A DNA stretch of 64,000 bases from Pinibacter soli (GTDB lineage: Bacteria; Bacteroidota; Bacteroidia; Chitinophagales; Chitinophagaceae), in assembly GCF_029961145.1 (NCBI RefSeq), contig NZ_JASBRG010000007.1, positions 910,155-974,154 of the forward strand, written 5' to 3'. Every line of letters starts with the position of its first letter. Within the stretch, counting starts at the first letter, position 1. The position numbers were made by a program, and so were the translations under genes. Positions 30,927 to 48,398 of the stretch are shown here, in pieces. Under the pieces are notes generated by a model that ran no database searches, was not told the DNA's origin, and was given only the letters and a program-made list of their open reading frames with translations.

Positions 30927-32415
30927 ACGCTATATTTCCATATGGTTCCGTTATTTGCTCACCGATCGCTCTGCACGGCATGCACCGCAACTTAACAAAG
31001 TGCCGTTTGTTTTAGTGGCCCCTGAACGAGGCCGCATGATGATCGTTGCCGCGAATGCACTGGCACAAAAGGAAAACATAGATGCAGGAATGGTACTGGC
31101 AGATGCGAAAGCCGTTTTTCCAGCCTTACAATATAAAGATGCAAAACCGGGATTGGAAATGGTACTGTTACACAATCTCGCCGAGTGGTGCATTCGCTAC
31201 GGCCCGGTCGTAGCAATAGATCTGCCCGATGGCCTGATACTGGATGCAACTGGTTGTGCGCATTTATGGGGCGGGGAAAATGCATACCTGCAGGACATCA
31301 CCAACCGTTTTCGTCGCTTAGGTTATTATGTGCATGTTGCTATTGCCGATACGGTTGGTAAGGCCTGGGCCTTTGCACGTTTTGCATCTTCGGGTAATAT
31401 TATTGTTGATGAAACAAACACTTTACTTTCTTTGACACCTGCTTCTCTTCGCATAGAACACAGCACCATTGAACGTTTAAATAAATTGGGCATACGCCAG
31501 ATCAGAGAATTGGTTAACATTCCACGTCCGGCATTGCGGCGAAGGTTTGGACATTTATTATTACAAAGACTTGACCAGGCGTTTGGGCAGGAACAGGAAT
31601 TTATCCAGCCCGTTCAACCGGTAGAAACTTTTGAAGAACGTTTGCCTTGCCTTGAACCCATTTCCACAGCAAGAGGCATTGAGATTGCATTAACGCGATT
31701 ACTCGACACTTTATGTGAAAGACTTTACAAACAACAAAAAGGCATTCGCACGGCCGTTTTCAAATGTTATCGCATTGATGGAAAAGTTGAGCAAATTGAA
31801 ATCGGCACCAGTCGTGCATCACACAATGCACTGCATCTTTTCAAACTTTTTGAGTTAAAGATCGACACCATTGAGCCAGCTCTTGGTATTGAGTTGTTCA
31901 TTTTACAGGCACCGAAAGTGGATGACATTATTGTGCCGCAGGAAAAATTATGGAACGGCACTAGCGGTTTGCTGGATCCCGGCATTGCAGAGTTAATTGA
32001 TCGTATAGAAGGGAAAGTCGGGCCGGGGCATATTCATCGCTATTTGCCTGCTGAACATCACTGGCCGGAACGCTCTATCAAGCCTGCAACATCGCTTGAT
32101 GACACGCCTTTGATTCCATGGAGAACGGATAAGCCAAGGCCAATACAACTATTACCCGTTCCTGAAAAGATTGCAGTAACCGCACCCATTCCGGATTACC
32201 CGCCAATGCAGTTTAACTACAAAGGCAAACTGCATAAAGTGGCAAAAGCAGATGGCCCCGAACGCATAGAACGGGAATGGTGGATCGATAAAGGATTGCA
32301 CAGAGATTATTATGTGGTGGAAAATGAACAGGGGCAACGCTATTGGCTGTTCCGTTTGGGACACTACGACGAAGAACAGAAACCAGAATGGTATGTGCAT
32401 GGATTTTTCGCATGA
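30919..32415 (+). CDS. imuB: ImuB, Y-family DNA polymerase-like protein
   Basis: The 498-residue protein has a Y-family polymerase fold: KRYISIWFRYLLTDR at the N-terminus, GMVLADAKAVFPAL, and LPDGLILDATGCAHLWGGE. The acidic residues that bind metal in active Y-family polymerases are replaced near the N-terminus (ISIWFRY), as expected for ImuB, which is an adaptor rather than an active polymerase. A C-terminal domain (WWIDKGLHRDYYVVENEQGQ) matches the conserved ImuB tail. Overlap with imuA indicates translational coupling. Confidence 0.9.
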   Translation: MPKRYISIWFRYLLTDRSARHAPQLNKVPFVLVAPERGRMMIVAANALAQKENIDAGMVLADAKAVFPALQYKDAKPGLEMVLLHNLAEWCIRYGPVVAIDLPDGLILDATGCAHLWGGENAYLQDITNRFRRLGYYVHVAIADTVGKAWAFARFASSGNIIVDETNTLLSLTPASLRIEHSTIERLNKLGIRQIRELVNIPRPALRRRFGHLLLQRLDQAFGQEQEFIQPVQPVETFEERLPCLEPISTARGIEIALTRLLDTLCERLYKQQKGIRTAVFKCYRIDGKVEQIEIGTSRASHNALHLFKLFELKIDTIEPALGIELFILQAPKVDDIIVPQEKLWNGTSGLLDPGIAELIDRIEGKVGPGHIHRYLPAEHHWPERSIKPATSLDDTPLIPWRTDKPRPIQLLPVPEKIAVTAPIPDYPPMQFNYKGKLHKVAKADGPERIEREWWIDKGLHRDYYVVENEQGQRYWLFRLGHYDEEQKPEWYVHGFFA

Positions 32416-32422
32416 AGAGAGA

Positions 32423-32673
32423 GCACACAGATGACACTGATTGGACTGATTTACACTGATTTTTTTTAACGATAATTCATTTTTGCAACAACTTAAATAT
32501 TGAGTTTTTTTGTGAAACCAGCAGTAGTACCGTGTTTGAGCTTCGGTTGTGTCACTCACTTCAACAATAGTAATTCTTATGAACAAAGAGAGCAACAGGT
32601 TGTGTTATTAACGAAGAGTTTGTATCAACAAAAAAATCTGTGTAAATCAGTCCAATCAGTGTCATCAGTGTGC
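32423..32673. repeat. Inverted repeat with CTGATT units between imuB and dnaE2
   Basis: The left arm (about 32423-32468) repeats ACTGATT at about 10-nt spacing and ends in a T-run. The right arm (about 32631-32673) is the near-perfect reverse complement. The spacer is about 160 bp. The gap 32416-32686 holds no gene. The element lies inside what should be one operon. Confidence 0.85.
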
Positions 32674-32686
32674 TAAAAAAAAGCAT

Positions 32687-35600
32687 ATGGAATACACAGA
32701 ATTACAGATTACAACCAACTTTAGTTTTTTGCAGGGTGCTTCACATCCTGAAGAAATGATGCAGCAGGCCGCGGAGCTTGGCTATACAAATATTGCTGTG
32801 ACAGATCGCAACACTCTCGCAGGAATTGTGCGTGCACACGTGGCTGCGAAAACACGCAACATCCGTATGATCACAGGCTGCAGACTCGATCTGCTGAACG
32901 GGCCAAGCCTACTTGCTTATCCTACCAACCAGGATGCTTATGGCAATCTTTCCGCTCTACTAACCAAGGGCAACCTGAGAGCAGAAAAAGGCAGCTGCCA
33001 TTTAAACAAAGAAGATGTTTATGCTTATGCAAAAGGCATGAAGTTTATTGCCATTCCACCATCTTCATTAACACCTTCATTTGATATAGATCCTGATTTC
33101 ATCAAATCTCTGAAAGAGTATAAAGATGCATTGGGCAAAGATGTATATCTCGCTGCCACCAAATCATATTTGGGAGATGATGCAAAGAGATTGTTTCGCA
33201 TAAAAGAATTATCAGATCGTTTTGATATTCCCATGATCGCAACGAATGATGTGTTCTATCACAACCATGCACGTCGCGAGTTACAGGATATTCTTGTTTG
33301 CATAAAAGAGAAATGCACAATCTACAACGCAGGTTTTAAGTTGCATCAAAATGCAGAGCGCTATCTGAAACACAAAGAAGAAATGTTCCGGCTTTTCCGG
33401 CATTACCCCGAAGCCATTGAACGCACACAGGAAATTGCAGAGGCTTGTAATTTTTCTCTCAATACACTTAAATATATTTATCCTGAAGAAATCACTTCAG
33501 AGGGCCGCACACCACAGGAAGAACTGGAACACCTTGCATGGGAAGGCGCTAAGGAAAGATATAATGGCATTATTCCGGATAAGATACGAGCAAATATTTT
33601 GCATGAAATCAAATTCATCAAAGAGATGAATTATGCTTCTTATTTTCTTACTGTATATGATATTGTCCGTTTCGCAAATTCACAAAAGATACTTTGCCAG
33701 GGACGCGGCTCTGCGGCCAATTCAACGATCTGTTACTGCCTTGGCATCACGGCTGTTGATCCTACAAAATTCGACCTCTTGTTTGAACGGTTTATTTCTT
33801 CTGCACGTAATGAACCACCGGACATTGATGTAGACTTTGAACATGAACGACGCGAAGAGGTGATTCAATACATCTATAAAAAATATGGTCGTGACAGAGC
33901 TGCGATCGTTGCAACAGTAACACAGCAACATCAACGGGGCGCCATTCGTGATGTGGGCAAAGCCATGGGATTATCGGTGGATGCGATCAGCCGGTTGTCG
34001 GGCTCTGTTTGGGAATTTACAACGGAATGGTTCGAAGGTCATCGTGTGGCTGAGCAAGGCTTCGATCCCCGCGATCCTCACCTGCGAAAGGTTTTAGAGC
34101 TTACCCAGCAATTCATAGGTTTTCCGCGTCAGCTTGGGCAACATACAGGAGGCTTTGTGATCACCCAGGGAAAATTGACGGACCTCTGTCCTATCATCAA
34201 TGCACGAATGGCAGACCGCACCAATATTGAATGGAACAAAGATGACATCGATGCACTTGGTTTTTTAAAGATTGATGTACTGGCGCTGGGCATGCTTACT
34301 TGTATTCGCAAAGCATTTGATTTGGCGAAACAACATTATGACCATGATTTTACATTGGCAAATATTCCGCAGGATGATCCTGCGGTGTATGAAATGATCG
34401 GACATGCAGATACGATTGGCGTGTTTCAGATTGAGAGCCGTGCGCAACAATCGATGCTACCGCGACTTAAACCAAAAACATTTTATGATCTTGTAATTGA
34501 AGTGGCTATTGTTCGCCCCGGGCCAATTCAAGGCGACATGGTGCATCCTTATTTACGAAGACGCAATGATGAAGAGAAAGTAGAATACCCGTCACCCGAA
34601 CTGAAAGCGATCTTAGAAAAAACCCTGGGGGTGCCTTTGTTCCAGGAACAAGCGATGAAAATCGCCATCGTTGCAGCGGGATTCACACCTGCTGAAGCCG
34701 ATGAATTAAGACGAAGCATGGCAACATTTAAAGTGCAGGGACTGGTTACAAAGTTTGAAAGGAAACTCATCGATGGCATGATGCGAAACGGTTATACAGA
34801 AGAATATGCACGACGGGTTTTCAAACAACTCGAAGGCTTTGGCAGTTATGGTTTTCCGGAAAGTCATGCCGCCAGTTTTGCGCTGCTTGTATATATTTCT
34901 TCATGGCTCAAATGGTATTACCCGGATGTATTTGCATGCGCATTGCTCAACAGTATGCCGATGGGATTTTACCAGCCCGCACAAATAGTAATCGATGCAC
35001 GCAAACATGGAGTTGTCGTAAGACCTGTCGATATCAATCATTCTAACTGGGACAATACGCTGGAAGAACAGGATGGCAACTTCAAAGCAATGCGACTTGG
35101 ATTTCGACAAATCAAAGGTTTAAGAGAGGACGACATGCAAACACTCGTGAGCAACAGAAAAGAAAATTACCAAAACATACATGCATTGCGTATGGCTGGC
35201 GTTCCACAATCTGCTTTGAAAAAACTCGCAGAAGCTGATGCTTTCCGCTCGATGGGTATTGACCGAAGACAAGCACTATGGCAGGCTTCTGCCATTCATG
35301 ATCAACCCGCAGGACTTTTCATTAACACTTCAATAGAAAGTAAAAATGAAACACAAATTGCATTACCTGAAATGACGATGGCAGAACATGTGGTGCAGGA
35401 TTACAGTTCAGTATCTCTTTCATTAAAAGCACATCCGGTTAGTTTTGTAAGAGAAAAACTGCAACGCCTGAATGTACGCACGACGCATGAACTATCGGAC
35501 ATTCCCAATGGTGCGTTTGTGAATGTTGCAGGACTGGTACTTGTGCGCCAACGGCCCGGAACCGCTGGTGGCGTGTGTTTCATTACTATTGAAGATGAAA

Positions 35601-35914
35601 CCGGCTACAGTAATCTTGTTGTTTTTCAAAATCTCTTTGATGCTTTTCGCAAACAAATTCTGGGCGCCAAATTACTGATGGTAGAGGGCAAATTACAACG
35701 CGAAGGCGAAGTCATTCACGTGATCGTACAACGTTGTTATGATTTTTCAAAAATGCTTAGGGATCTGACGGCAGTCAAAGTTCAGGAAAACGCGCTGTTA
35801 ACGCTATCCCGCGCCGATGAAAGATCTGCGCCATATACGGCCAATAATAAACGTGCACAAATAAAAGAGAAGAATACGGAGATTAATTTTCCGGAGGCGA
35901 GGAATTTTAAGTAG
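32687..35914 (+). CDS. dnaE2: Error-prone DNA polymerase DnaE2 (ImuC)
   Basis: The 1075-residue protein has an N-terminal PHP domain (TTNFSFLQGASHPEEMMQ), the palm with catalytic aspartates Asp381 and Asp383 in PPDIDVDFEH and Asp530 in FLKIDVLAL, a finger region, a helix-hairpin-helix, and a C-terminal OB fold (VNVAGLVLVRQRPGTAGG). The OB segment and shorter length separate DnaE2 from the replicative DnaE1. It extends DNA past lesions together with ImuB. The stop codon is the first TAG of a GTAGAGACAAGG repeat, so the end of the gene is supplied by the repeat. Confidence 0.93.
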   Translation: MEYTELQITTNFSFLQGASHPEEMMQQAAELGYTNIAVTDRNTLAGIVRAHVAAKTRNIRMITGCRLDLLNGPSLLAYPTNQDAYGNLSALLTKGNLRAEKGSCHLNKEDVYAYAKGMKFIAIPPSSLTPSFDIDPDFIKSLKEYKDALGKDVYLAATKSYLGDDAKRLFRIKELSDRFDIPMIATNDVFYHNHARRELQDILVCIKEKCTIYNAGFKLHQNAERYLKHKEEMFRLFRHYPEAIERTQEIAEACNFSLNTLKYIYPEEITSEGRTPQEELEHLAWEGAKERYNGIIPDKIRANILHEIKFIKEMNYASYFLTVYDIVRFANSQKILCQGRGSAANSTICYCLGITAVDPTKFDLLFERFISSARNEPPDIDVDFEHERREEVIQYIYKKYGRDRAAIVATVTQQHQRGAIRDVGKAMGLSVDAISRLSGSVWEFTTEWFEGHRVAEQGFDPRDPHLRKVLELTQQFIGFPRQLGQHTGGFVITQGKLTDLCPIINARMADRTNIEWNKDDIDALGFLKIDVLALGMLTCIRKAFDLAKQHYDHDFTLANIPQDDPAVYEMIGHADTIGVFQIESRAQQSMLPRLKPKTFYDLVIEVAIVRPGPIQGDMVHPYLRRRNDEEKVEYPSPELKAILEKTLGVPLFQEQAMKIAIVAAGFTPAEADELRRSMATFKVQGLVTKFERKLIDGMMRNGYTEEYARRVFKQLEGFGSYGFPESHAASFALLVYISSWLKWYYPDVFACALLNSMPMGFYQPAQIVIDARKHGVVVRPVDINHSNWDNTLEEQDGNFKAMRLGFRQIKGLREDDMQTLVSNRKENYQNIHALRMAGVPQSALKKLAEADAFRSMGIDRRQALWQASAIHDQPAGLFINTSIESKNETQIALPEMTMAEHVVQDYSSVSLSLKAHPVSFVREKLQRLNVRTTHELSDIPNGAFVNVAGLVLVRQRPGTAGGVCFITIEDETGYSNLVVFQNLFDAFRKQILGAKLLMVEGKLQREGEVIHVIVQRCYDFSKMLRDLTAVKVQENALLTLSRADERSAPYTANNKRAQIKEKNTEINFPEARNFK

Positions 35915-37184: not shown

Positions 37185-38324
37185 TTATTTCCTCAGCACA
37201 ATATCCTCCTTCGCGGCCCATTGCATCACGTCCTGTTTGCTCAGCGCTGCGGCCATCATATCGGGAAATTTGTCGGGCGTACAAGCAAATACAGGCACAC
37301 CCAAATTGGAGAGAAACTGTGCATTATTGTGATCGTATGCCGGCGCACCATCGTCGTTCAGAGCAAGCAACACGATCAACTGCACGCCTGCCGCAACCAG
37401 TTCTGTGGCACGCTTGCGCATATCGGCCACATTGCCGCCCTCGTACAGATCTGTGATCAATATCATCACCGTGTCTGTTGGTCGTGTTACGATCTGCTGA
37501 CAATAGGTAAGCGCAGCATTAATATCTGTACCACCGCCCAACTGCACGCCAAACAACAACTCTACGGGATCCTGCAGATCTTCTGTAAGATCAGCAACCG
37601 TGGTATCAAACACCACCATCTTTGTTTTAACCGCAGGAATCGACGCCATCACCGATCCAAAGATACCTGAGTAAACAACAGATGTTCCCATCGATCCGCT
37701 TTGATCCAGGCACAGCACAACATCTTTCAACGCATTTCTTTTGCGACCATAACCAATCTTCGTTTCCGGAATAATAGTTTTATATTCCGGTTGATAGTGT
37801 TTCAAATTACGCCTGATCGTCTCCGACCAGTTGATCTCATTGTGGCGCGGCCTGCGATTGCGCACGCTGCGGTTGAGACTGCCAACAATCGCCTGCTGCG
37901 TGGGTTGTGTGAGTTTGCGCAATAGTTCGTCCACTACTTTCCTCACCACCATTCTTGCGGTATCCTTTGTCTTATCGGGTATCACGCGGCTTAACGTCAT
38001 TAATGTTGCTACCATATGCACATCCGGCTCAATATTTTCCAGCATCTCTTTTTCAAAAAGCATCTGGGTAAGATTGAGCCTGTCGAGCGCATCCTTCTGC
38101 ATGACCTGCACAACAGTATTCGGGAAAAAAGTGCGTATATCTCCCAGCCATCTCGCGACATTCGGCGAAGACGCGCCAAGACCGCCCTGCTTGTCTGAGT
38201 CGTACAAAGCAGATAATGTATTATCCATTTGCACATCGGTGCCCGACAATGAATACCCTGTTCCATCACTTTGATCGCCTCCTAATATCAATCTCCATTT
38301 ACGAAGATGTTGTTCGTCACTCAT
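37185..38324 (-). CDS. VWA domain protein of a MoxR-type cassette
   Basis: The 379-residue protein has an N-terminal helical region and a C-terminal von Willebrand A domain. The metal-ion site is intact: DQSGS with Asp207, GGGTDINAALTY, and MILITDLYEGG. There is no signal peptide, so it is cytoplasmic. VWA proteins of this type partner with MoxR-type AAA+ ATPases, and such an ATPase is encoded in the same run of genes (44149-45228). In E. coli the YehP protein has the same role in a similar gene set, as I recall it. Substrate and reaction are unknown. Confidence 0.88.
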   Translation of the reverse strand: MSDEQHLRKWRLILGGDQSDGTGYSLSGTDVQMDNTLSALYDSDKQGGLGASSPNVARWLGDIRTFFPNTVVQVMQKDALDRLNLTQMLFEKEMLENIEPDVHMVATLMTLSRVIPDKTKDTARMVVRKVVDELLRKLTQPTQQAIVGSLNRSVRNRRPRHNEINWSETIRRNLKHYQPEYKTIIPETKIGYGRKRNALKDVVLCLDQSGSMGTSVVYSGIFGSVMASIPAVKTKMVVFDTTVADLTEDLQDPVELLFGVQLGGGTDINAALTYCQQIVTRPTDTVMILITDLYEGGNVADMRKRATELVAAGVQLIVLLALNDDGAPAYDHNNAQFLSNLGVPVFACTPDKFPDMMAAALSKQDVMQWAAKEDIVLRK

Positions 38325-38400
38325 TTTACTTAGTTTAGAATTACTTCAAAACAATTACAGTTATTTTTTTGACACCGGCATTTATGCCTTGATTGAACTT

Positions 38401-38495
38401 TGCTTGCGACGCTCCATTCAACAGTTGAATATCTATTGAACAATTTTAAATTGATCATTAAAGAACTAACAGTCGAAGAGTGCGACGCAACGATG
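38401..38495. repeat. Imperfect inverted repeat between DUF4132 and VWA genes
   Basis: TTGCGACGC-type sequence at about 38401-38430 and its imperfect reverse complement (GTCGAAGAGTGCGACGCAA region) at about 38465-38495. The 262-bp gap holds no convincing gene. Confidence 0.5.
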
Positions 38496-38586
38496 TTTAA
38501 TACCTATTCTATCGCCCGGCTCACAATCGAAACTCCACAAAATGACTATTGTCTTAATACAAACCATCTTACAATAATTAGTGTTA

Positions 38587-41577
38587 TCAATTACTCTCAA
38601 ACACTTTAATCGCATCTATCGACGCGAACATTTCGTTCAAAAAAATCGGTGGCAACTCTTTAAATGCTACCAAAGCCTCATCATCCATACCTTTCGGTGA
38701 ATACCATTTTGAATTGTTCGTTATTGCTCTGTTCAACACATACAACTTCCCTAACTTTTCATCACCGCCAAATCCATACACAACACTCACTCCCTCTATT
38801 TCGAGCACCGCTTCTATATTTTTTTCGTCGTACAATAGTTTGAATGATTCAATGTAGCCACCGTCTCCGGTACTTCCCTTATGCCAGCCATGCTTTTCCA
38901 ACGTTGATCTGATCGAGCCAGTTTTCATAAGCTTTCCATCGTATTTCGAGGAAATAGTTTTTGTTAATTCATCTTCATTCAGGCTGACTACTAGCCTTTC
39001 AAGCTGAGGGAAAATAGCATCCACAGAGGTATCATAAAAATGTTGTTTCCATCGTTGCAGATCTTCTGTGGGCAACTGCGTTGGATGTACAATACCAATG
39101 CGTGCATTATCGCCGGGCTCTATATCATCATAGCTGGCATCCTGCAAAGAAGTATCTTCGTTGCAATAGAATGCCTGTTGCAAATTGCCCGCTTCATCAT
39201 ATACGCCCCACAACAATCTCGTCGCGTAAATAAACATGACCGGGTTCTCCAGAAATGCACGGCGCCATTGTGCAAAGCTCCATTTTCGCTGGATAACTAA
39301 ATAATACTCGAGCCTTGAAGACTGCGATTTTGTTATGTCGCGTACTTCTTTTGCAATGCTTTTAAATTCTTCCTTTATTGTATCGTCCGCCGCAGCGGGT
39401 ATTGTTTTCAGCTTTTTATTGTCGTCGTTAAAGAATGCTATTTTGAATTTATTGTCAATAAATGCCCTATAGTTTTCTCCGTTCACTGCAAAGTGTTTGA
39501 ATAAACCATCAAAGCCAAAGTCGGGAACAATACGGTCGCCCAATTCATGCGTGGTAATATTCAGTTCCTCCGCCGCAGTTTCCAAAGCAGCCAAAGCAGC
39601 ACTGCCCACATTCGCACGTTTAGCTTTGTATTTTCGACTGTACCATTCCACCCAGCGCAAGGCTTTGTTGCTACCTTGTATAGCAAGCGCACCAACGCCA
39701 TACTCAGCCATCTTGTAGCGATTCTCATCTATCCACTTATCGGTGGTAATGCGAATTTTATCTACCACGGTATCGTCGCCCAAAAGACCTGCGAGCGTCA
39801 TTAGATATTTATGCTCGGGCTTTGCGCCTTTTTCAATGAATAGTTTAATAAGTGTCAGGGCAAATGGAGCAGCCGTAACACGATCAATCAATTGCAACAA
39901 ATATTTTGCTTCAATATCAGACCGCATGTCTTTTACACGGCTCATTCTGTAAAGCAAAAACCGCAGTTCCTCCTTGCTTACTTCGCTTCCACTTTCATAG
40001 TGCAGCGACGGTAACTCGTCTTCAATCAACCACGCTTCTACCGATTTGTTCAGCTTTCCTCTTTCTCTTGCAGAATCAACCATCTCCGAGACAACCGCAT
40101 AGGAGCTTTGCCCCGGCAGGCTTCCGGCAATTGTTTGCAACAGAATATCGCGGGCCACATCATTTGTTTCTTTGCCCAAAGCCTGCTTAATCGCATTTTC
40201 CGCGGCAGGGCTAGAGAAAGCTGAAAGTATTTGCGCAGCCGTTTGACGGGCATCGGCACTTTTATTATTCAGCAACTCGATTGCTTTTTCTTCTGCCTTC
40301 GAATCATTGGCTACAATAAGAGAGGCAACCTGTGCCCGCAAGGGTTTTGATTTGTGCTTAACAAAGCTCCAGTACAAGGGCAGTTGTGATTCTATTGGAA
40401 AATGCTTTGCCAGTCCGGCTAAAACACTTCTGTAATAATCAATACCTCCATCAGACTGCAGTGCCAGTTGATAATAAGGCAAAGCATCTTCGTTTAAATA
40501 ATGAGCAATAACCGTGAGTGTTTGATCCTGTATAAAAGCTTTTGCTTCTTTTATCTTTTCCAGGTATGCGAGGCCTTCACTTCTATCGTTTTCAAATACA
40601 ATGTACAAGCTAAAAGTACTGAAATGGGTTAACCCGGACAGAAGCGGACTATTCGCGTAATATTGTGAACCGTAGGGCTCGTTTTTCGGAAGCCCCAAAT
40701 AGTAATCCAGATAACTGCGGGATTGAAACAGCATAGCATCTCTGTACTTTTTGGAATCCAATTCGTATAGCGTGAGCGCCTTTGTAAAATCGTCAAACCG
40801 CTCATCTCCGTATTTGACCCCATCAGCCTGCAGCCTGCTTTGAACCCGTTGCAAATAAATACCGTTTCTAAATACACTTACGAATTTAATACCGTCCTCC
40901 ATTTTCCTCAATAACAAATACTCAACAAATCTTTCTGCAAATTCAGGTCTGATATCATCCAACAGTACAAAAAAAGCTTTCATCTGATTGGCCTTACTAA
41001 ATGTTTCGTCATTAATAGCAACAAGCAGTCCTCTATGATCAAAAGGAGAAATAAACAGTTTGCTTTGTTTTATATAATCTACCACATAACGCTGTATGCT
41101 TTGACTTGCGAAGATTGGTTTGCTTGTTTTATCATCGAAACCCAAATAAAAAATACAGCCTTTAAAAATATCTTCTTCAGATCCCCTTGTTTTTTTCATC
41201 CAATATATAGCGTGCTGAATGGCTGAATCGGTATCATTTTTTATTAGGTAACCCAACAGAAATTGATGAAAAGCATACTGCATGTAAGCGTCTAAAGCAG
41301 GGGCAGTAACCAAATCCAAAATGAGATGATCGTTAACAGATGGCGTTTCGATATTTTCCAAGAGGTGCAAAAAAACATTTACTACATACACAGACGCATC
41401 GTACTGAACAACAGGCAACTGACTTGCTCTACCTGTGAGATAATCAACAATGCCAAGGATAGTCGGATGTTGTCTAAAGTCCGTTGATTTAAGGAGATGA
41501 TGAAATGCAAACAGGGTCAAATTCTCAGACTCCGCACGTGCTAACACATCATCTATTTGCTGCTGTGAAAAAGGCAT
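38587..41577 (-). CDS. DUF4132 domain protein with HEAT-like repeats
   Basis: The 996-residue cytoplasmic protein is mostly alpha-helical, with HEAT-like repeats in the middle (LRAQVASLIVANDSKAEEKA, then KSADARQTAAQILSAF). Its C-terminal third has the DUF4132 pattern: RKWSFAQWRRAFLENPVMFI, LLWGVYDEAGNLQQAF, and IGIVHPTQLPTEDLQRWKQH. In E. coli related proteins (YehI/MolR type) accompany a MoxR-VWA gene set. No catalytic function is known to me. It lies between the DUF5682 and VWA genes. Confidence 0.85.
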   Translation of the reverse strand: MPFSQQQIDDVLARAESENLTLFAFHHLLKSTDFRQHPTILGIVDYLTGRASQLPVVQYDASVYVVNVFLHLLENIETPSVNDHLILDLVTAPALDAYMQYAFHQFLLGYLIKNDTDSAIQHAIYWMKKTRGSEEDIFKGCIFYLGFDDKTSKPIFASQSIQRYVVDYIKQSKLFISPFDHRGLLVAINDETFSKANQMKAFFVLLDDIRPEFAERFVEYLLLRKMEDGIKFVSVFRNGIYLQRVQSRLQADGVKYGDERFDDFTKALTLYELDSKKYRDAMLFQSRSYLDYYLGLPKNEPYGSQYYANSPLLSGLTHFSTFSLYIVFENDRSEGLAYLEKIKEAKAFIQDQTLTVIAHYLNEDALPYYQLALQSDGGIDYYRSVLAGLAKHFPIESQLPLYWSFVKHKSKPLRAQVASLIVANDSKAEEKAIELLNNKSADARQTAAQILSAFSSPAAENAIKQALGKETNDVARDILLQTIAGSLPGQSSYAVVSEMVDSARERGKLNKSVEAWLIEDELPSLHYESGSEVSKEELRFLLYRMSRVKDMRSDIEAKYLLQLIDRVTAAPFALTLIKLFIEKGAKPEHKYLMTLAGLLGDDTVVDKIRITTDKWIDENRYKMAEYGVGALAIQGSNKALRWVEWYSRKYKAKRANVGSAALAALETAAEELNITTHELGDRIVPDFGFDGLFKHFAVNGENYRAFIDNKFKIAFFNDDNKKLKTIPAAADDTIKEEFKSIAKEVRDITKSQSSRLEYYLVIQRKWSFAQWRRAFLENPVMFIYATRLLWGVYDEAGNLQQAFYCNEDTSLQDASYDDIEPGDNARIGIVHPTQLPTEDLQRWKQHFYDTSVDAIFPQLERLVVSLNEDELTKTISSKYDGKLMKTGSIRSTLEKHGWHKGSTGDGGYIESFKLLYDEKNIEAVLEIEGVSVVYGFGGDEKLGKLYVLNRAITNNSKWYSPKGMDDEALVAFKELPPIFLNEMFASIDAIKVFESN

Positions 41578-41609
41578 AAGATGGTTGTTTAAATTCTACT
41601 TTTTTGTTT

Positions 41610-41728
41610 CCAGGCTGACTGAATAACTGAACTTGAATGTTCATCTTTCATTACAATTACTCAGTCATTCAGTTATTCCATTATTCAGTTAATTCAGTTA
41701 ATCAGTTATTCAGTTACTCAGTTACTCG
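41610..41728. repeat. Inverted repeat with CAGTTA units between DUF5682 and DUF4132 genes
   Basis: One arm (about 41610-41632) reads CTGACTGAATAACTGAACTT. The other (about 41655-41728) is a tandem array of ATTCAGTT and ACTCAGTT units complementary to it. The TGA stop of the DUF5682 gene (41718-41720) lies inside the array, and the last codons AGT AAC are also repeat sequence. Confidence 0.8.
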
Positions 41729-44006
41729 AATATCCCATCAGTTCCATCACTACTCCAATTGCAGTTTCTGCACGTTCTTTATTGATTGATATCTGCGTAC
41801 CGGTTTTTGTTATACCACTGCCTTCAAACTTCACTTTCTCTCCTATTTTTCTTCTTTCGGGTTTGGAGAAAACGGCAAATGTTCTTCTCAATAATGGCAG
41901 CAATTGCGTAAACACCTCTTCGTTGAGTTGAGTTACCCAGTTGTTTACCATCTGCCAGAGGTTTTCATCGAGCAGCAATAATGTACCGCTGCCTTTCAGG
42001 AATCCTTCCAGCCATGCACTTGCTTCCGGCGGCGGAACGGCTTTGCTCATGCTGCTATAAAATGTATTGTACAGCACTTCTTCCTTCATTGCACCGGCAT
42101 CCATTAAATGGCGAACAGCAAAGCCTCTGAGCATTGGTGCGGCCTGTACATTGAATGCAATTTGCTGCAGGCATTGCTGCCATTGCTGCTGAAAAGGCTG
42201 ATGCTTCAGGAGTTGAATGCTGTGTTCTATTTTCAGGCTGTCATCTGTAATCGCCGTCGCAGTATTTTCATCAACGCCGCAACAAGCCGCCGGCAAACCA
42301 ATGCAAACACGCGTAACCATGCTCGTTAGCAATGATAAGATCATGTCTGTATCGGTCTGCCGCACGTTTCCATATCTTACAATGTCGGCCAGTTTTGGAA
42401 TTACTTTTATCAGTTCCAGTACATCGTTGGTTGCGGCCGCCATGTTGGCGATATGCGTTGCCACAAACGATGCGGCACCTGTCAACTCAGCCGGTATCAC
42501 CAATTGTAACAGCCCCGCGACTTCTTGTAATGAAGAACTACTTTTACAACGATCTATTAAAAATGACGAAACTGCCTCTTCCACCGTGTTGCCCCAGGTT
42601 CCTTTGTCCACAATATCTACAGACAATTCAGGCCTCCATTGAACGCGCCATGCTTCCTTGAATGTTCCTTTGCTGCTGCTGTGCGTTTTCTCACCCCAGT
42701 TGATCTGTAATATCAGCAGACGATGCAAGAATATACTTCGTTCGAGATCATTTTCTTTACGCAGATCCAAAGTATAGTCCTTCCAGTCTGCGGTTTGCGG
42801 CAAGCGCAGACGCTTCTGTATTTTTTCAATATCGACCTGCAAAGGAGGTTTGGGAACATCTTCAGGAACCGCACCTATCTTATTGCTTACTATCAATTCA
42901 TCCCGAACAAGGTTCAGCAAAATATTTTCGCCATTGCACAACACGCTCCATGTAGCTTCATTCAGCTCATATAATCCGGGCCGTGGCAATTGCCTTAATG
43001 CCGCGAGTGAATCAGCAAGTCGCACCGCTTCTATCACATGCGCAACAGAAATGTCCATTTGCTTTCCCCTGAACAGTGCGGCTACTTTACTCATCCATCT
43101 TGTGCCGTCATCTTTGGGATAGTGCCACAAGTGCTCATACCATCCGGGGGACTGAATTCCTGCACCATAGCCACTTTCAAAAGATAAGCGATCGTATGTC
43201 CATGGCACCCAGCTGCATTGTATTTTTACTTTTGGTAAACCTTTCAGCAATTCATTGTCTTCCTTTTGCTTTGGCATGTTTGTCAATGCCGGCACATGCC
43301 ACGCACCACATATCACTGCAATGTTTGTGAACATTTCTCTTTCTGCTTCGCGAATGACCTTGCGCATATAGGCTTCACGGAGTTTTTCACGTGCATCATT
43401 TTCTTTGGGAAAAGCCTCACGAAGTTCCTGCATTGTTTCGCCTACTGCTTCAAATATCGCTTCATTGTTGAGCCGCTGCTCAAACATTACTTCCCACCAT
43501 TTTTCTCCATCGCTATAGCCGGCAGCATTGGCCAAATGGCTTATAGGATCGATAGGAAAATGTGGAACTGCTTTTTCATCACCTTCGACTGCAGCAGTTG
43601 CATCAGCAGATTCAATAGCAGTTGGTTCAGCCACCTCGTTTTCCTTCTTTTGCTCCTGCCCTTGTGTCTTTGCTTTTTCTATTCTTTCTTTTTCTATGGC
43701 CATCGAGTGCATTACAGGCAAATCCATAAAGCGCACGGGTATGTTGTTTTTGCGTGCGTACAATATAGCCTGCCACTCCGGCGAGAACTCAGCAAATGGA
43801 TAAAACAATGACTGCTGCGGATCTTCGGGTTGATATGCAAGTATAGCCACAGGTGGTTGCAAATCAGATTTTCCCACCCATTGTAAAATATCATTTGCGT
43901 CCGGCGGTCCTTCTACCAATACGATATCGGGCTTCATTTCTTCAAGGAAGTCTTTTACATTTCGTGCCGAACCTGGACCGTGATGGCGTATGCCAAGTAT
44001 TTGCAT
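41718..44006 (-). CDS. DUF5682 family protein
   Basis: The 762-residue protein begins MQILGIRHHGPGSARNVKDF and continues PDIVLVEGPPDANDI, which is the start pattern of DUF5682 and faintly recalls TraB/ChaN-type folds. Other features are AVICGAWHVPAL around residue 230 and a helical C-terminal half. A lysine- and glutamate-rich insert lies near residues 110-150. The family regularly occurs beside MoxR-type ATPases and DUF4132 proteins; E. coli YehM is of this type as I recall. Biochemistry is unknown. Confidence 0.85.
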   Translation of the reverse strand: MQILGIRHHGPGSARNVKDFLEEMKPDIVLVEGPPDANDILQWVGKSDLQPPVAILAYQPEDPQQSLFYPFAEFSPEWQAILYARKNNIPVRFMDLPVMHSMAIEKERIEKAKTQGQEQKKENEVAEPTAIESADATAAVEGDEKAVPHFPIDPISHLANAAGYSDGEKWWEVMFEQRLNNEAIFEAVGETMQELREAFPKENDAREKLREAYMRKVIREAEREMFTNIAVICGAWHVPALTNMPKQKEDNELLKGLPKVKIQCSWVPWTYDRLSFESGYGAGIQSPGWYEHLWHYPKDDGTRWMSKVAALFRGKQMDISVAHVIEAVRLADSLAALRQLPRPGLYELNEATWSVLCNGENILLNLVRDELIVSNKIGAVPEDVPKPPLQVDIEKIQKRLRLPQTADWKDYTLDLRKENDLERSIFLHRLLILQINWGEKTHSSSKGTFKEAWRVQWRPELSVDIVDKGTWGNTVEEAVSSFLIDRCKSSSSLQEVAGLLQLVIPAELTGAASFVATHIANMAAATNDVLELIKVIPKLADIVRYGNVRQTDTDMILSLLTSMVTRVCIGLPAACCGVDENTATAITDDSLKIEHSIQLLKHQPFQQQWQQCLQQIAFNVQAAPMLRGFAVRHLMDAGAMKEEVLYNTFYSSMSKAVPPPEASAWLEGFLKGSGTLLLLDENLWQMVNNWVTQLNEEVFTQLLPLLRRTFAVFSKPERRKIGEKVKFEGSGITKTGTQISINKERAETAIGVVMELMGYSSN

Positions 44007-44007
44007 T

Positions 44008-44150
44008 AATTGAAAATTGAAAGTTGAAAGTTGAAAATGAGCTTTGAGTTGTTGGTTGTTAGTTGTTGGCCTTTAATGGCGACTATTCAAAACTGAAGTG
44101 TAACAACTATCAACTAGCAACTTATTTCTAATTCCTAATTTCTAATTCCT
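44008..44150. repeat. Compound repeats between AAA+ and DUF5682 genes
   Basis: From left to right: TTGAAAG heptads (44009-44041), a GTTGTTGGTTGTTAG array (44046-44069), its reverse complement CAACTATCAACTAGC (44104-44123), and TTCTAAT/TCCTAAT heptads up to the AAA+ stop codon (44149-44151), which the repeat supplies. The left end abuts the DUF5682 start codon, so almost the whole gap is repeat. Confidence 0.8.
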
Positions 44151-45228
44151 AAATCAGTTCTCTGCATGCACGATACACATCCTTCCACTCATCTCTTGTT
44201 TTTACAACTGTCTCAAGATATTCCTGCCAGACTATTTTATCCTGAACGGGATCTTTGATTACAGCACCAATGATGCCTGCAGCTAAATCATTTGCTTTTA
44301 ATCTTCCATCACCAAAATAACCGGCCATTGCCAGACCATTGTTCACTACAGAAATCGCTTCTGCCGTGCTCAATGTACCTGACGGCATTTTTATTTTTGT
44401 TTTACCATCGATGGTTACGCCGTTTCGAAGTTCGCGGAAGATGGTCACGATGCGTCTTATTTCTTCCAATGCAGGTGGTTCTGCAGGCAGCTCCATAACT
44501 TTCTCATAGCTTTCAACTCGACGTTTTACAATATCCATTTCCTCTTCAATAGAATCGGGAACGGGAAGTATGACCGTATTAAAACGACGCTTTAATGCAC
44601 TGCTCAGTTCATTCACGCCTTTGTCGAGATTGTTGGCAGTTGCAATTACATTGAACCCTCTGGTTGCCTGCACTTCAATGTTGAGCTCCGGTACGGGCAT
44701 TGCTTTTTCACTCAGTATGGTGATCAGCGTATCCTGCACGTCTGCGCCGATACGCGTCAACTCTTCTATTCTTACCAATTTACCATCTTTCATGGCACGC
44801 ATTACAGGCGTTTCTACCAATGCTTTTTCAGAAGGTCCTTCTGCCAGCAAACGTGCGTAGTTCCATCCATAACGAATGGCTTCTTCACTCGTACCTGCAG
44901 TTCCCTGAACGATCATGGTGCTGTCGCCACTAACGGCCGCTGCAAGATGTTCGCTCACCCAACTTTTCGCCGTTCCTGGCAAACCGTACAAAAGCAATGC
45001 CCTGTCTGTGGCAAGTGTGGCCACAGCAATTTCCATCAGCTTTCGGCTGCCGATGTATTTGGGCGTTACTTCAAAACCATTGTTAAGTTTACCTCCTACG
45101 AGATAAGTAACTACAGCTTGCGGCGTGAGCTTCCAGTTGGCCGGACGTTTGCCCATATCATATTTCCCCAATTCCTCAAGTTCCTGTGCGAATAATTGCT
45201 CTGCGTGTTGGCGTAGTATGGTTGACAT
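44149..45228 (-). CDS. MoxR-family AAA+ ATPase
   Basis: The 359-residue protein has Walker A GLPGTAKS (residues 82-89), sensor 1 in NVIATANNLDKG, and an arginine finger in SALKRRF. The Walker B region reads LVRIEELTRIGADVQDTL, with Glu-Glu where MoxR proteins usually have Asp-Glu. MoxR ATPases act as remodelling chaperones with VWA-protein partners, and such a partner is encoded at 37185-38324. The gene starts 11 bp after the DUF5691 gene. E. coli YehL is the corresponding protein as I recall. Confidence 0.9.
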   Translation of the reverse strand: MSTILRQHAEQLFAQELEELGKYDMGKRPANWKLTPQAVVTYLVGGKLNNGFEVTPKYIGSRKLMEIAVATLATDRALLLYGLPGTAKSWVSEHLAAAVSGDSTMIVQGTAGTSEEAIRYGWNYARLLAEGPSEKALVETPVMRAMKDGKLVRIEELTRIGADVQDTLITILSEKAMPVPELNIEVQATRGFNVIATANNLDKGVNELSSALKRRFNTVILPVPDSIEEEMDIVKRRVESYEKVMELPAEPPALEEIRRIVTIFRELRNGVTIDGKTKIKMPSGTLSTAEAISVVNNGLAMAGYFGDGRLKANDLAAGIIGAVIKDPVQDKIVWQEYLETVVKTRDEWKDVYRACRELI

Positions 45229-45239
45229 AATATTGTTGA

Positions 45240-46751
45240 TTAAGGTTTATGTATAAATGATGATTGTATCTGTAAACGCAATTGCATCAGGTGTTTTATG
45301 TAGTCCCCCATGTTTGCCCATTGCGATTGCAAATATTGTTCTTTCGGTTGGAATTTATCAACGGCATTGATCATTGCCGGATGAAACAAGTGAATGTATG
45401 TACTGAAAAACTTTCTGTTGTGTATATACATATTACCGGCGAGATGCTCGACAACAGCAACAGAAAATGCTTCATCAAGAGGAACTTTTGCAGCGGTAAT
45501 TGCATTGATGAGATTGTTGCGTTCACTCACTGCTTCTGTGCCAGTCCGGGAATTGTAAAATGAAAAGCCGTAATCACCGGCATCTGCCGGAGGCAGCAAA
45601 TGAAGCGCATCTGTGTAAAAAGTGTTCTTGTCTTTGCCTACAACCACGCGAAAGCAATCAAGATCTTTAAAACGCACGGCAGCGGTGCCAAACGCCGTTA
45701 GCAAGGAAGGAGATTGATGTGAAAACAAGTCTGCAATCTCTTCATAAGACAATTGCAACATCGATTTTATTTCAGATGGCGGCGCATAGGCCATCAACTG
45801 TTGTACGATAAAAAGGTCATCGCTCAATTCTTTTACATTGCTTAACTTTTCTATGCCGGTTTCAAAAACGGAACTGCTTATTTGAGGCAACTGTATCTGC
45901 AAGACATTTTTCGAAACAAGCCCCAGCAATGCTTTTTCTTTTTTTACCTGCAAAGCCTGTTGCAATATTTGTACATATTCACGAACAACGGAAGACGCGG
46001 GTATTATTTTAAGTAACGCAAAGGCAAGTTCCTTTACCTTTTTACTTTTCTCTGTTTTCAATTTGTCAAGGAAATCAATATCCTTTTCACTTATCCCATT
46101 TCCGAAAACAGATAAAAACAAAGCTTTCGTATTGGCGTCTTCTTTATCCCAGGTCTCTTCCAATAATTGTCTTGCTTTTGCAGGGTCTGTTGTTCTCATT
46201 TCCATGAGCACGAGTCTGCGTTGTTCGGCCAGTCCCGTGTTCCATATCTCTTCATCACTTTCACTTGTGGAAAATTTCCAGTCAGGATTAAAGCTTATCA
46301 ACCATTCGCCACGCTTGCCGCAACATTTCGCAATGATGGTTTGCAATTTTTTATTTTGCGAAGCGATATCAAACAGCGATGGAATAAGCTCTGGCGGAAC
46401 AATAAAACCTTTGCCGGCACATACATTCAGCCAAATCTCCAACAATCCGTTGCTTTCCGCATCTATTATTTCACTTAACAAATAAAGTGCGGCGGAAGGG
46501 CAATAAGTTTTTTCTTCAGGCGATGCAATTTCAATGCTCGTTTTCTCATCCGGCACCAATGACGCGCCGGACTGACGATAGTTAAAAGCCAGCGCTACTA
46601 TTTGCAAAAAACGTTCTTCGTGATCTATTTGATTATTGTCATTAATGCGCTGCAATGCCGGCTGTAAAGATTCTTCAGCTTCTGCAACATCCGCCTGTTG
46701 CTTGCCTGTACCAAGCGATGCAACTTGTATAATGTGATTCCAAAACTGCAT
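45240..46751 (-). CDS. DUF5691 family protein
   Basis: The 503-residue protein is alpha-helical and cytoplasmic. Recognisable family segments are YLLSEIIDAESNGLLEIWLN, PPELIPSLFDIA, CGKRGEWLISFNPDWKF, and the C-terminal FHPAMINAVDKFQPKE. A middle part looks like HEAT-type helical repeats (ARQLLEETWDKEDANTKALF). It begins 12 bp after the SWIM gene ends and ends 11 bp before the AAA+ gene starts, so the three are one transcript. Its role is unknown; a scaffold for the ATPase complex is a guess. Confidence 0.85.
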   Translation of the reverse strand: MQFWNHIIQVASLGTGKQQADVAEAEESLQPALQRINDNNQIDHEERFLQIVALAFNYRQSGASLVPDEKTSIEIASPEEKTYCPSAALYLLSEIIDAESNGLLEIWLNVCAGKGFIVPPELIPSLFDIASQNKKLQTIIAKCCGKRGEWLISFNPDWKFSTSESDEEIWNTGLAEQRRLVLMEMRTTDPAKARQLLEETWDKEDANTKALFLSVFGNGISEKDIDFLDKLKTEKSKKVKELAFALLKIIPASSVVREYVQILQQALQVKKEKALLGLVSKNVLQIQLPQISSSVFETGIEKLSNVKELSDDLFIVQQLMAYAPPSEIKSMLQLSYEEIADLFSHQSPSLLTAFGTAAVRFKDLDCFRVVVGKDKNTFYTDALHLLPPADAGDYGFSFYNSRTGTEAVSERNNLINAITAAKVPLDEAFSVAVVEHLAGNMYIHNRKFFSTYIHLFHPAMINAVDKFQPKEQYLQSQWANMGDYIKHLMQLRLQIQSSFIHKP

Positions 46752-46763
46752 GTAAAAATATTT

Positions 46764-48065
46764 TTAAAGCGCCTTGTATGTTTGATTGTACCACATGCCT
46801 AATGGCGTAAAAGTTTTCTCTGCCCCAATGACACACATGGTGGTATAGTCACCTCCACTCAATGACAACAGGAGCCAAATGTTATCGAATGTTTTTTTTA
46901 ATGGCATCAAACAGTTTTTTGCATCCTGCAAATGCCATTGCTGATTATGCAGCACCGGCCGCACATTTTCTACAATATAAGGCGAATAACCTTTGAATGG
47001 CAGCTTACTGAAATTAAGCGCCTGAGCTTCGAACACTTCATCCCAATCTTTATAAGCCTTTGGTGACGTTGTATCATTTGAAGCGATCTGCTTTTTTATC
47101 AATGCACGAAGCGGCAACACGGATGGATAAAAAACGAGCTCTGCCTGAATACATGCACCCGGCATCAGTGTTAATTGCCCGCCTTGTCCTCTTACAATAA
47201 ATTGCAGTACCAGGGCTGTTTGTTGCGTATGCAAGCCATACAGCCAATATCGTTCTGTTGTTATGTTGTCTTCTTCTGAAACTTCTTTTGCCAACACCAG
47301 CCAATGATCGTTCACTCCTGTTTGTTCGAGCAACGCTTCCTGGCTTTGTGAAAAACCAATTAACGTTCGGATGTCTTGCTGTAGCATGGGATCAAGTGTC
47401 TCTATTCGTTTATATCCGGTAGCGACGAGATAAATGCGTGACAGTTGATCGAGCAACGCAGATTGCCAGCCTTCTGCATAAAAGTTGATATTTCCGGCGG
47501 TGCGCACCATACCGGCAAGCGTGGGGGCTTGCGCATCAATCAAACGACGGCCCATGTTTTCAAATGTTGCTGTTCCTTTTTCTGGAATATTCATAATGCC
47601 ATTGCTCACAACATCCTTCATCCACAACATTAATTCTTCAAGACCGTCGGCGATCTTTTGTTCTCTTGCTTTTTGCCGCTTGAGTTGCGCGGCCTCGTCA
47701 ACAGGCTTTTCTTTTTCTGTCTCCTTTTTTTCCTGGCGCTCGGTTCTTTTCCCTATCCATTCATCTACCCAGCCGGGCATTGTGGTATCTGTAAAAGAAA
47801 GCTTGTCTTTTGCATACAACAACATCAAGCCAAGCCCATGTTTGCAGGGAAATTTACGTGAGGGGCAGGAACATTTAAAGGAAGTTGTCGAAAGATCAAC
47901 TTGTGTTTGATAAGGTTTGCTGCCGCTGCCCTGGCACTCGCCCCAGAGCGCTCTTTCGTTGGCGCCTTTTGACACCCACTTGGAAAGTGTTGCCAATGCT
48001 TTTCCATTTTTCTTCGAAGATTCATCAGGGGCAAGGGATAATATCTGTTCTTCTGAAAGTTGCAA
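46764..48065 (-). CDS. SWIM zinc finger protein
   Basis: A TTG start at 48065 gives 433 residues beginning with LSEEQILSLAPDESS-type sequence, which is the usual N-terminus of this family; an ATG at 48164 would add 33 hydrophobic, repeat-derived residues. The SWIM motif is CSCPSRKFPCKHGLGL, with the CxCxnCxH zinc ligands intact. A charged Lys/Glu-rich linker (RQEKKETEKEKPV) and a large helical C-terminal domain follow. SWIM domains bind DNA or proteins. The gene opens the six-gene cassette; E. coli YehQ is a SWIM protein in the same context as I recall. Confidence 0.85.
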   Translation of the reverse strand: MQLSEEQILSLAPDESSKKNGKALATLSKWVSKGANERALWGECQGSGSKPYQTQVDLSTTSFKCSCPSRKFPCKHGLGLMLLYAKDKLSFTDTTMPGWVDEWIGKRTERQEKKETEKEKPVDEAAQLKRQKAREQKIADGLEELMLWMKDVVSNGIMNIPEKGTATFENMGRRLIDAQAPTLAGMVRTAGNINFYAEGWQSALLDQLSRIYLVATGYKRIETLDPMLQQDIRTLIGFSQSQEALLEQTGVNDHWLVLAKEVSEEDNITTERYWLYGLHTQQTALVLQFIVRGQGGQLTLMPGACIQAELVFYPSVLPLRALIKKQIASNDTTSPKAYKDWDEVFEAQALNFSKLPFKGYSPYIVENVRPVLHNQQWHLQDAKNCLMPLKKTFDNIWLLLSLSGGDYTTMCVIGAEKTFTPLGMWYNQTYKAL

Positions 48066-48180: not shown

Positions 48181-48398
48181 TTCAATGTCGTTTGGTTAGG
48201 CGATATCGCCGTTTGCCATATTAATGTCCTACGGACAAAAAGCTCCTCCGTAATATTTTCTATTGATATTAACGCCCTACGTGCAATAGAACTTTTCCCG
48301 TAGGGAAAAAACATCAATAAAAATCGCCGTAACCTGAACATTATTGCCCGTATGGCATTAACCTTTGGCGCCCTTTCCTTAACTAAACGACATTGAAA
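48181..48398. repeat. MITE-like element with terminal inverted repeats
   Basis: The ends TTCAATGTCGTTTGGTTAGG and, inverted, TTTCAATGTCGTTTAGTTAA form terminal repeats of about 19 bp. An 8-bp sequence CTCTAATT lies at both sides (48175-48182 and 48399-48406), overlapping the left terminus by two bases. Inside are several perfect short palindromes: GGCGATATCGCC (48199-48210), GTCC-TAC-GGAC (48226-48236) and TTTTCCCGTAGGGAAAA (48293-48309). No coding frame is present. It fills the 305-bp gap upstream of the methyltransferase, beside GGAAAT/TTGAAAA units at 48113-48140. Confidence 0.6.

Follow-up and report, generated by a model that had tools for sequence, protein, structure and literature searches.

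In described MoxR–VWA pairs, the VWA protein holds a client and ATP hydrolysis remodels it (PMC7159879, section 8; PMC13036017). In NorQ–NorD, a MoxR ring and its VWA partner serve nitric oxide reductase (PMC13036017), the MoxR ATPase RavA of Escherichia coli has ViaA as VWA partner (PMC3893208), and the ternary systems of the VMAP, iSTAND, FtsH, and beta-propeller types add a conserved further protein to MoxR and VWA (PMC7159879). MoxR–VWA systems with a further partner are thus known already, and so are, by name, the yeh genes of E. coli and the YehL subfamily, one of seven among MoxR proteins (PMC3893208). Here, we analyse a cassette of six genes in a 64,000-nucleotide stretch of Pinibacter soli (contig NZ_JASBRG010000007.1, positions 910,155 to 974,154; hereafter the window), all on the minus strand between 37185 and 48164, which encode in this order a SWIM zinc-finger protein, a DUF5691 protein, a MoxR-type AAA+ ATPase, a DUF5682 protein, a DUF4132 protein, and a VWA protein. 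The core common to all layouts of this cassette is the trio of MoxR, DUF5682, and VWA, and the N-terminal third of DUF5682 belongs, by profile comparison, to the TraB/PrgY/TIKI superfamily.

The cassette has a MoxR ATPase and a VWA protein, as do the systems described above, and differs from them in what accompanies the two. The further protein of the ternary systems is here DUF5682, and Pfam found none of the VMAP, iSTAND, FtsH, or beta-propeller components in the six proteins and four neighbours at E <= 0.01, apart from a bpMoxR match in the window that stays below its cut-off (24.9 vs. 27). Rapidly swapped effector domains were approached through fusions, looked for with the six cassette profiles, and few relatives were scanned with Pfam. 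NorQ–NorD acts on a client that sets it apart from the window cassette and, to our knowledge, comes without DUF5682, SWIM, and DUF5691 proteins. YehL, SWIM, and DUF4132 are not named in the main text of PMC7159879. Our searches of the open-licence literature returned no paper naming DUF5682 or DUF5691, three naming DUF4132, and no functional study of the cassette; the three titles naming at least two yeh genes were a notice on a reduced genome, a resource of Shigella strains, and a study of RNA-seq bias. Neither the TraB/PrgY assignment of DUF5682 nor the organisation into a trio with adaptors was found in this literature, and both are to that extent new.

The MoxR–VWA pair and the conserved gene unit

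The MoxR protein of the window scores 223 bits against E. coli YehL and 25 bits against RavA, the two subfamilies compared, and by this measure it belongs with YehL and not with RavA. Its GLPGTAKS and RIEEL motifs, which we take to be Walker A and Walker B, and the residues presumed to be sensor 1 and arginine residues are nearly invariant: K87 is kept in 148/149 loci and E154, E155, N198, R213, and R214 in 149/149. In the VWA protein, the metal ion-dependent adhesion site (MIDAS) has its aspartate and both serines in all of the 134 aligned loci, T261 in 130, and D262 in 123. The initial annotation had supposed a MoxR–VWA pair from family knowledge, and this is supported, the ATPase motifs of the one protein and the MIDAS motif of the other being conserved. 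The ATPase would putatively be a hexamer that works with its VWA partner.

The open reading frames (ORFs) and Pfam confirm the six same-strand genes and the order in which they had been read, with gaps of 12, 11, 142, 140, and 262 bp along the cassette, the two shortest separating the first three genes. The Pfam matches are strong for DUF5691 (E 1e-80), for AAA_5 in the MoxR protein (7e-36), for DUF5682 (4.2e-266), and for VWA_CoxE (1.2e-46). The SWIM finger gives E 7.5e-5 (22.6 bits for a cut-off of 19.6), and the DUF4132 protein matches DUF4132 at 3.7e-37 and HEAT_2 just below the cut-off (27.4 vs. 27.7 bits). The longest ORF of the SWIM gene starts at an ATG (48164), and the end proposed initially, 48065, is a TTG codon; the alignment with SWIM relatives begins about there, at residue 33 of the long ORF, so that the TTG fits better than the upstream ATG.

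How general is this arrangement was assessed in two sets of loci. The first comprises the best 80 of at least 580 contig stretches encoding MoxR relatives, not all of which need be of the YehL type; their titles name Bacteroidota, Cyanobacteria, Chloroflexi, Planctomycetes, Proteobacteria, Verrucomicrobia, Armatimonadetes, and others. Enough flanking sequence was available in 53 of the 80 (27 were dropped), and this set, being chosen by MoxR similarity, leans to Bacteroidota. The order SWIM–DUF5691–MoxR–DUF5682–VWA, allowing for an inserted DUF4132, is found in 50/53 loci: alone in 39, with DUF4132 after VWA in 7, and with DUF4132 inside in 4. SWIM is missing in 2 of the other loci, and both SWIM and DUF5691 in 1. 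DUF4132 occurs in 11/53 loci, in all 11 alongside DUF5691.

The second set was selected by DUF5682 alone: of the 73 loci fetched, 58 had flanks of 3 kb or more to either side, and 15 were dropped. It omits weak or fragmentary matches (in genomes G931, G1111, G1213, G1089, and G685) and copies already present (loci L065, L066, L077, L086, L090, and L095), and it includes L105, the second copy of a genome that had been reached by way of its cassette. When all genes on the same strand as DUF5682 were counted over stretches of up to 20 kb, MoxR was found in 53 loci, VWA in 52, SWIM in 33, DUF5691 in 29, and DUF4132 in 10, the figure for SWIM being a lower bound because its profile misses divergent fingers such as that of YehQ. 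MoxR, DUF5682, and VWA stand together on one strand in 52/58 loci, so that their co-occurrence, on which the first interpretation depended, is anything but rare. The five-gene order is found in 28/58, and DUF5691 and DUF4132 never share a locus (0/58). The wider conserved unit is therefore one of five genes with DUF4132 as an optional sixth, and the idea of a fixed six-gene set is not supported, DUF4132 being absent from 42/53 and 48/58 loci.

Three layouts can be distinguished: 1) SWIM–DUF5691–MoxR–DUF5682–VWA, with or without DUF4132, as in the window; 2) DUF4132–MoxR–DUF5682–VWA–(SWIM), in E. coli and Iodobacter, and rearranged in Agrobacterium vitis; and 3) VWA–MoxR–DUF5682 with a divergent DUF5682 of about 900 amino acids (L117, L137, L138, and L160-L162). 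The clustered E. coli genes yehI/yehL/yehM/yehP/yehQ encode, like the window, MoxR, DUF5682, VWA, a SWIM finger, and DUF4132, and YehL, YehP, and YehM are respectively 39%, 33%, and 24% (over 779 columns) identical to the MoxR, VWA, and DUF5682 proteins of the window, which bears out the relationship noted at first. The set differs in having DUF4132 first, in place of SWIM–DUF5691, and SWIM last; YehQ has the SWIM finger, and no DUF5691 was detected in it. It is the DUF4132 version of the cassette. In E. coli K-12, yehH (L002:7411-10270), an annotated pseudogene adjoining the intact yehI, also matches the DUF4132 profile.

Some of the genes are fused. The cassette profiles reveal single-ORF fusions of DUF5682 and VWA in L147, L152, L154, and L197, with which Pfam agrees for the last three, and one of SWIM and DUF5691 in L193, where Pfam recovers DUF5691 and no SWIM finger at E <= 0.01. 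The five proteins also diverge in parallel, with correlations of r 0.73-0.93 between their pairwise distances across 88 loci, to which shared genome ancestry contributes. The four ligands of the SWIM finger are invariant in the 108/108 loci matched by the cassette SWIM profile, which leaves YehQ-type proteins outside. In a profile comparison, DUF5691 is similar to DUF4132 in the HEAT region of the latter (P 7.6e-5); this fits DUF4132 standing in for DUF5691, with a generic similarity between HEAT repeats as a possible alternative source. In two loci, several kb of other ORFs interrupt the cassette, in L062 after MoxR and before DUF5682, in L071 to either side of DUF5682; these are possibly insertions.

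Relatives occur in several phyla, as first suggested, according to both locus titles and counts of DUF5682 (PF18934). With the window genome included, the family is found in 7/296 genomes of the window phylum and 24/195 of the window family, and both genomes of the same genus that are listed are among the family negatives. The phyla reached through other cassette genomes, named here from locus titles and with the centre genome counted, give 12/299 (phylum of G330, Burkholderia), 11/194 (G327, Leptolyngbya; 10 over the cut-off), 28/201 (G319, Ktedonobacter), and 25/199 (G331, Planctomycetales; 24 over the cut-off), and two of 14 control genomes have a match (E. coli and Deinobacterium chartae). 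The yehL–yehQ stretch is present at >=80% coverage in 5162/5426 complete E. coli genomes, and cassette copies occur on 36 plasmid records. One genome of the window family carries a broken DUF5682 copy with several stops (G1233:C46:181864-183705). A scan of viral contigs for DUF5682 confirmed no relative, and phage records gave one match, to an unannotated 14-kb 'Bacteriophage sp.' entry; a phage origin of the cassette is unsupported by these searches.

The N-terminal domain of DUF5682

A profile of the N-terminal part of DUF5682 (138 rows) aligns over 189 columns with PrgY-type TraB proteins (8 rows; Prob 96.7, P 4e-10), a score equalled by none of 60 column shuffles. The labels 'PrgY-type' and 'GumN-type' are working ones, assigned by motif, and the eight PrgY-type sequences all come from the phylum of G331 (8/246 genomes). 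Three targets were tried, PrgY-type, GumN-type, and ChaN, and the P value has to be read accordingly. Each half of the profile alone aligns at the matching PrgY position (P 1.8e-5 and 1.1e-7), in a register that places GIRHH on GTAH, E32 on the glutamate of VEL, D95 on an aspartate of ADRD, R210 on an arginine, and CGAWH on VGAGH, E77 being without a partner. The TraB and ChaN rows were cleaned to the right type and strand, and L205 was excluded as the motif is absent. ChaN then matches locally with P 3e-5, and GumN-type TraB, for which a first comparison before the DUF5682 profile was deepened was not significant (P 0.11), matches locally over 31 columns with P 3.9e-3, in both cases with 0/60 shuffles as good. 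For reference, these families compared with each other give 1.9e-7 (GumN-type and PrgY-type), 6.1e-4 (ChaN and PrgY-type), and 3.6e-3 (GumN-type and ChaN). The scores of DUF5682 are 70.4 for PrgY, 39.5 for ChaN, and 26.7 for GumN-type, and the other five cassette families score 14.2-20.4.

Residues of this domain are conserved in DUF5682 itself: H8, E32, E77, D95, and R210 are invariant in the 148/148 loci with a residue there and H237 in 149/149, while E211 is kept in 147/148 and H9 in 143/148, close relatives being included in these counts. The AlphaFold models are confident, with a mean predicted local distance difference test score of 88.5 for the whole protein and 87.3 for the first 291 residues, and in both an alpha/beta domain comes first, with helices after it. 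The top Foldseek match of the N-terminal model is a Tetrahymena mitochondrial complex IV subunit (7w5z_E; E 0.015, probability 0.80), and no tie of this subunit to TraB was established. DUF5682 shares with TraB/PrgY/GumN, ChaN, and TIKI proteins a domain, by profile, and the order GxxH...E...GxxH; it differs from them in its extra long helical part, in its tie to MoxR and VWA, and in having GIRH for GTxH/GExH. Among the members of the TIKI superfamily are peptidases and Ere esterases, for which a common His-Glu pair has been proposed (PMC6254334). From the profile match and the conserved residues, DUF5682 is likely a hydrolase or a binder of a metal or cofactor. Its initial description as a purely helical scaffold is not supported, because its N-terminal third is a domain of this type. 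Table 1 gives the positions of the genes and motifs.

Table 1. Genes of the cassette and motifs discussed in the text, with positions in the window.
Feature	Position	Strand	Basis
SWIM zinc-finger protein	46764..48065 (longest ORF to ATG 48164)	-	ORF list, Pfam, homology start
SWIM finger CxCx6CxH	47838..47873	-	alignment to cassette SWIM profile
DUF5691 protein, HEAT-like	45240..46751	-	Pfam, profile comparison
MoxR-type AAA+ ATPase, YehL subfamily (by similarity)	44149..45228	-	Pfam, comparison with YehL and RavA
Presumed Walker A, GLPGTAKS, MoxR protein	44962..44985	-	alignment of loci
Presumed Walker B region, RIEEL, MoxR protein	44758..44772	-	alignment of loci
DUF5682 protein: N-terminal TraB/PrgY/TIKI-type alpha/beta domain and long helical C-terminal part	41718..44006	-	Pfam, model, profiles
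TraB/PrgY/TIKI-type domain, about residues 1-275	43182..44006	-	model, profile comparison
H8 and H9 of motif 1, GIRHHG	43980..43985	-	H8 aligned to His of GTAH in PrgY-type TraB
E32, motif VEGP	43911..43913	-	aligned to Glu of VEL in PrgY-type TraB
H237, motif CGAWH	43296..43298	-	aligned to VGAGH of PrgY-type TraB
DUF4132 protein with HEAT-like repeats, optional member	38587..41577	-	Pfam, census
VWA_CoxE protein	37185..38324	-	Pfam, comparison with YehP
MIDAS motif DQSGS, VWA protein	37692..37706	-	alignment of loci

A proposed machine and its alternatives

We propose that the cassette encodes one machine. Its motor would be a YehL-type MoxR AAA+ ring with the VWA protein as co-chaperone, and the dedicated partner of this motor would be DUF5682, a putative TraB/PrgY/TIKI hydrolase on a long helical body. 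The MIDAS site of VWA would hold DUF5682, and ATP hydrolysis by MoxR would remodel DUF5682 in a way that loads, opens, or switches on its active site; the described pairs remodel a client, and DUF5682 would by analogy be the client or the working end. The SWIM and DUF5691 proteins would form an adaptor or scaffold module, which DUF4132 would replace or join in other versions. We hold this reading, in which a YehL-type MoxR–VWA motor acts on a TIKI-type DUF5682 with SWIM/HEAT adaptors in a single machine, tentatively, with a probability of about 45%.

Several observations weigh against it. DUF5682 stands without MoxR on its strand in 5/58 loci and may therefore work alone in some genomes. The match to GumN-type TraB is weak, its first 100 columns giving P 0.27. 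Foldseek found no PDB match for either DUF5682 model at E <= 0.001, with ChaN (2g5g) at rank 29 for the N-terminal model (E 3.9, TM 0.29/0.32), the whole-chain search being uninformative because helical repeats dominate, and searching the PDB sequences with the N-terminal profile by hmmsearch returned nothing significant. DUF5682 also lacks the glutamate two residues before the first histidine (GIRH, not GExH), which is counted in the 2His/2Glu set of RRSP and Ere (PMC6254334), so that DUF5682 might have a different activity or none; this glutamate is likewise missing from the TraB and PrgY rows and does not define the whole superfamily. Finally, the conservation of residues in this domain could reflect ligand or metal binding without catalysis.

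In one alternative, the machine would resemble a protease, MoxR and VWA unfolding or presenting outside substrates, DUF5682 cleaving them, and SWIM acting as the receptor. The peptidases of the TIKI superfamily, the DUF5682–VWA fusions, and the peptidase domains in the third component of the VMAP ternary systems (PMC7159879) point in this direction, but the reviewed MoxR–VWA pairs mostly remodel complexes or insert metals, one being likely involved in peptide degradation (PMC7159879, section 8), and we consider this variant unlikely. Still less probable is the insertion of a cofactor or metal into an outside enzyme, with DUF5682 as a carrier and perhaps a molybdenum link through DUF4132. NorQ and NorD serve metal insertion (PMC13036017), DUF5682 is similar to the profile of the heme-binding ChaN, and DUF4132 may take part in molybdopterin biosynthesis (PMC8533742). 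Yet no metalloenzyme recurs next to the cassette, no Pfam family being found in more than 2 of 100 nearest-neighbour ORFs (E <= 1e-5), and the expression of moeA and moeB is not differential upon DdrO depletion (PMC8533742).

The two remaining alternatives concern the purpose of the system, for which the initial annotation had suggested stress or conflict. A response to DNA damage or desiccation is suggested by Deinococcus radiodurans, where the DdrO regulon contains the WGR gene dr2173 as well as drA0165-drA0166, an operon with DUF4132, with protein induced by mitomycin (PMC8533742). In E. coli, a LexA-box-like site lies 9 bp before yehF, a position that proves little by itself since the half-site pattern is over-represented across the whole E. 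coli stretch (23 vs. 8.1). In Deinococcus taeanensis, the single Deinococcus locus available, a site located 19 bp ahead of the SWIM start as annotated (L194:7711-7754) has one mismatch to what we take to be the DdrO box, and overlaps the promoter-like sequence TTGACA-16-TACAAT by the final base of the latter; however, this pattern also occurs upstream in 3 non-Deinococcus loci, with 5 matches overall for 1.0 expected. LexA-type boxes upstream of 153 loci are not enriched (observed/expected 14/12.4, 0/0.9, 2/0.8, and 6/9.2, and 14/16.4 for a looser form), and general SOS control was rejected. We regard the link to DNA damage as suggestive, and a machine devoted to this response as quite improbable. 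A role in defence against phages or in other conflicts seems far less plausible still. The patchy presence in the window family, the broken copy, the copies on plasmids, and the existence of MoxR–VWA conflict systems (PMC7159879) would fit it, but PADLOC gave for the six proteins just weak IetA matches to MoxR (E 7.9e-4 and 1.2e-3), and the near-constant presence of yehL–yehQ in E. coli is unlike that of a variable defence island. PADLOC matches number 19 in 100 nearest ORFs (of 129) and 26 in all 68 fifth-neighbour ORFs, where ORFs were chosen for their length and may, in G+C-rich loci, include some that are not genes. Being no commoner beside the cassette than five ORFs away, they led us to reject a defence-island association, and the conflict part of the initial suggestion gains nothing from neighbouring genes. 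The first interpretation is overall partly supported.

Surroundings and significance

In the window, the cassette is followed beyond the VWA end by an aminotransferase gene and a set for an error-prone polymerase (30150-35914, one gene away), which comprises a protein of 258 amino acids without Pfam match, an IMS/ImuB-like protein, and a DnaE2-type polymerase. A methyltransferase and an alpha-galactosidase gene lie beyond the SWIM start. Two CGTAGGRCNTTAATAT-like elements lie at 48218-48281, upstream of SWIM, and are the only ones in the window at <=2 mismatches, with 0.17 expected. Across loci, no neighbour keeps a constant place: the 29 clusters common to at least three loci are mainly from related genomes or broad families, dnaE-type genes occurring in five loci (three from one related group) and aminotransferase-type genes in three, at varying distances. 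RNA-repair genes lie close to the cassette in two loci, with a PNKP-ligase and two RlaP directly upstream in L011 (L011:12-3527) and two RlaP downstream in L050 (L050:16840-18716), and the remaining loci among the 88 covered have none there (L096-L162 were outside this search). RlaP is present somewhere in 20/38 cassette genomes, a figure without a matched control, and this link was set aside as a weak lead.

In its most far-reaching form, which we judge rather unlikely, the proposed machine would be an ATP-gated hydrolase of the TIKI superfamily, i.e., an AAA+ device for processing or degradation without relation to Clp, Lon, and FtsH, in which MoxR–VWA would drive DUF5682 and the SWIM/HEAT adaptors would choose the targets, perhaps as cells recover from DNA damage or desiccation. 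Such a device would be present in most genomes of E. coli and across many other phyla. The recognition of DUF5682 as a putative TraB/PrgY/TIKI-type protein provides for this cassette an enzyme hypothesis that names residues and can be tested, and because a version of the cassette is present in E. coli K-12, this hypothesis may be approached in a convenient laboratory strain.

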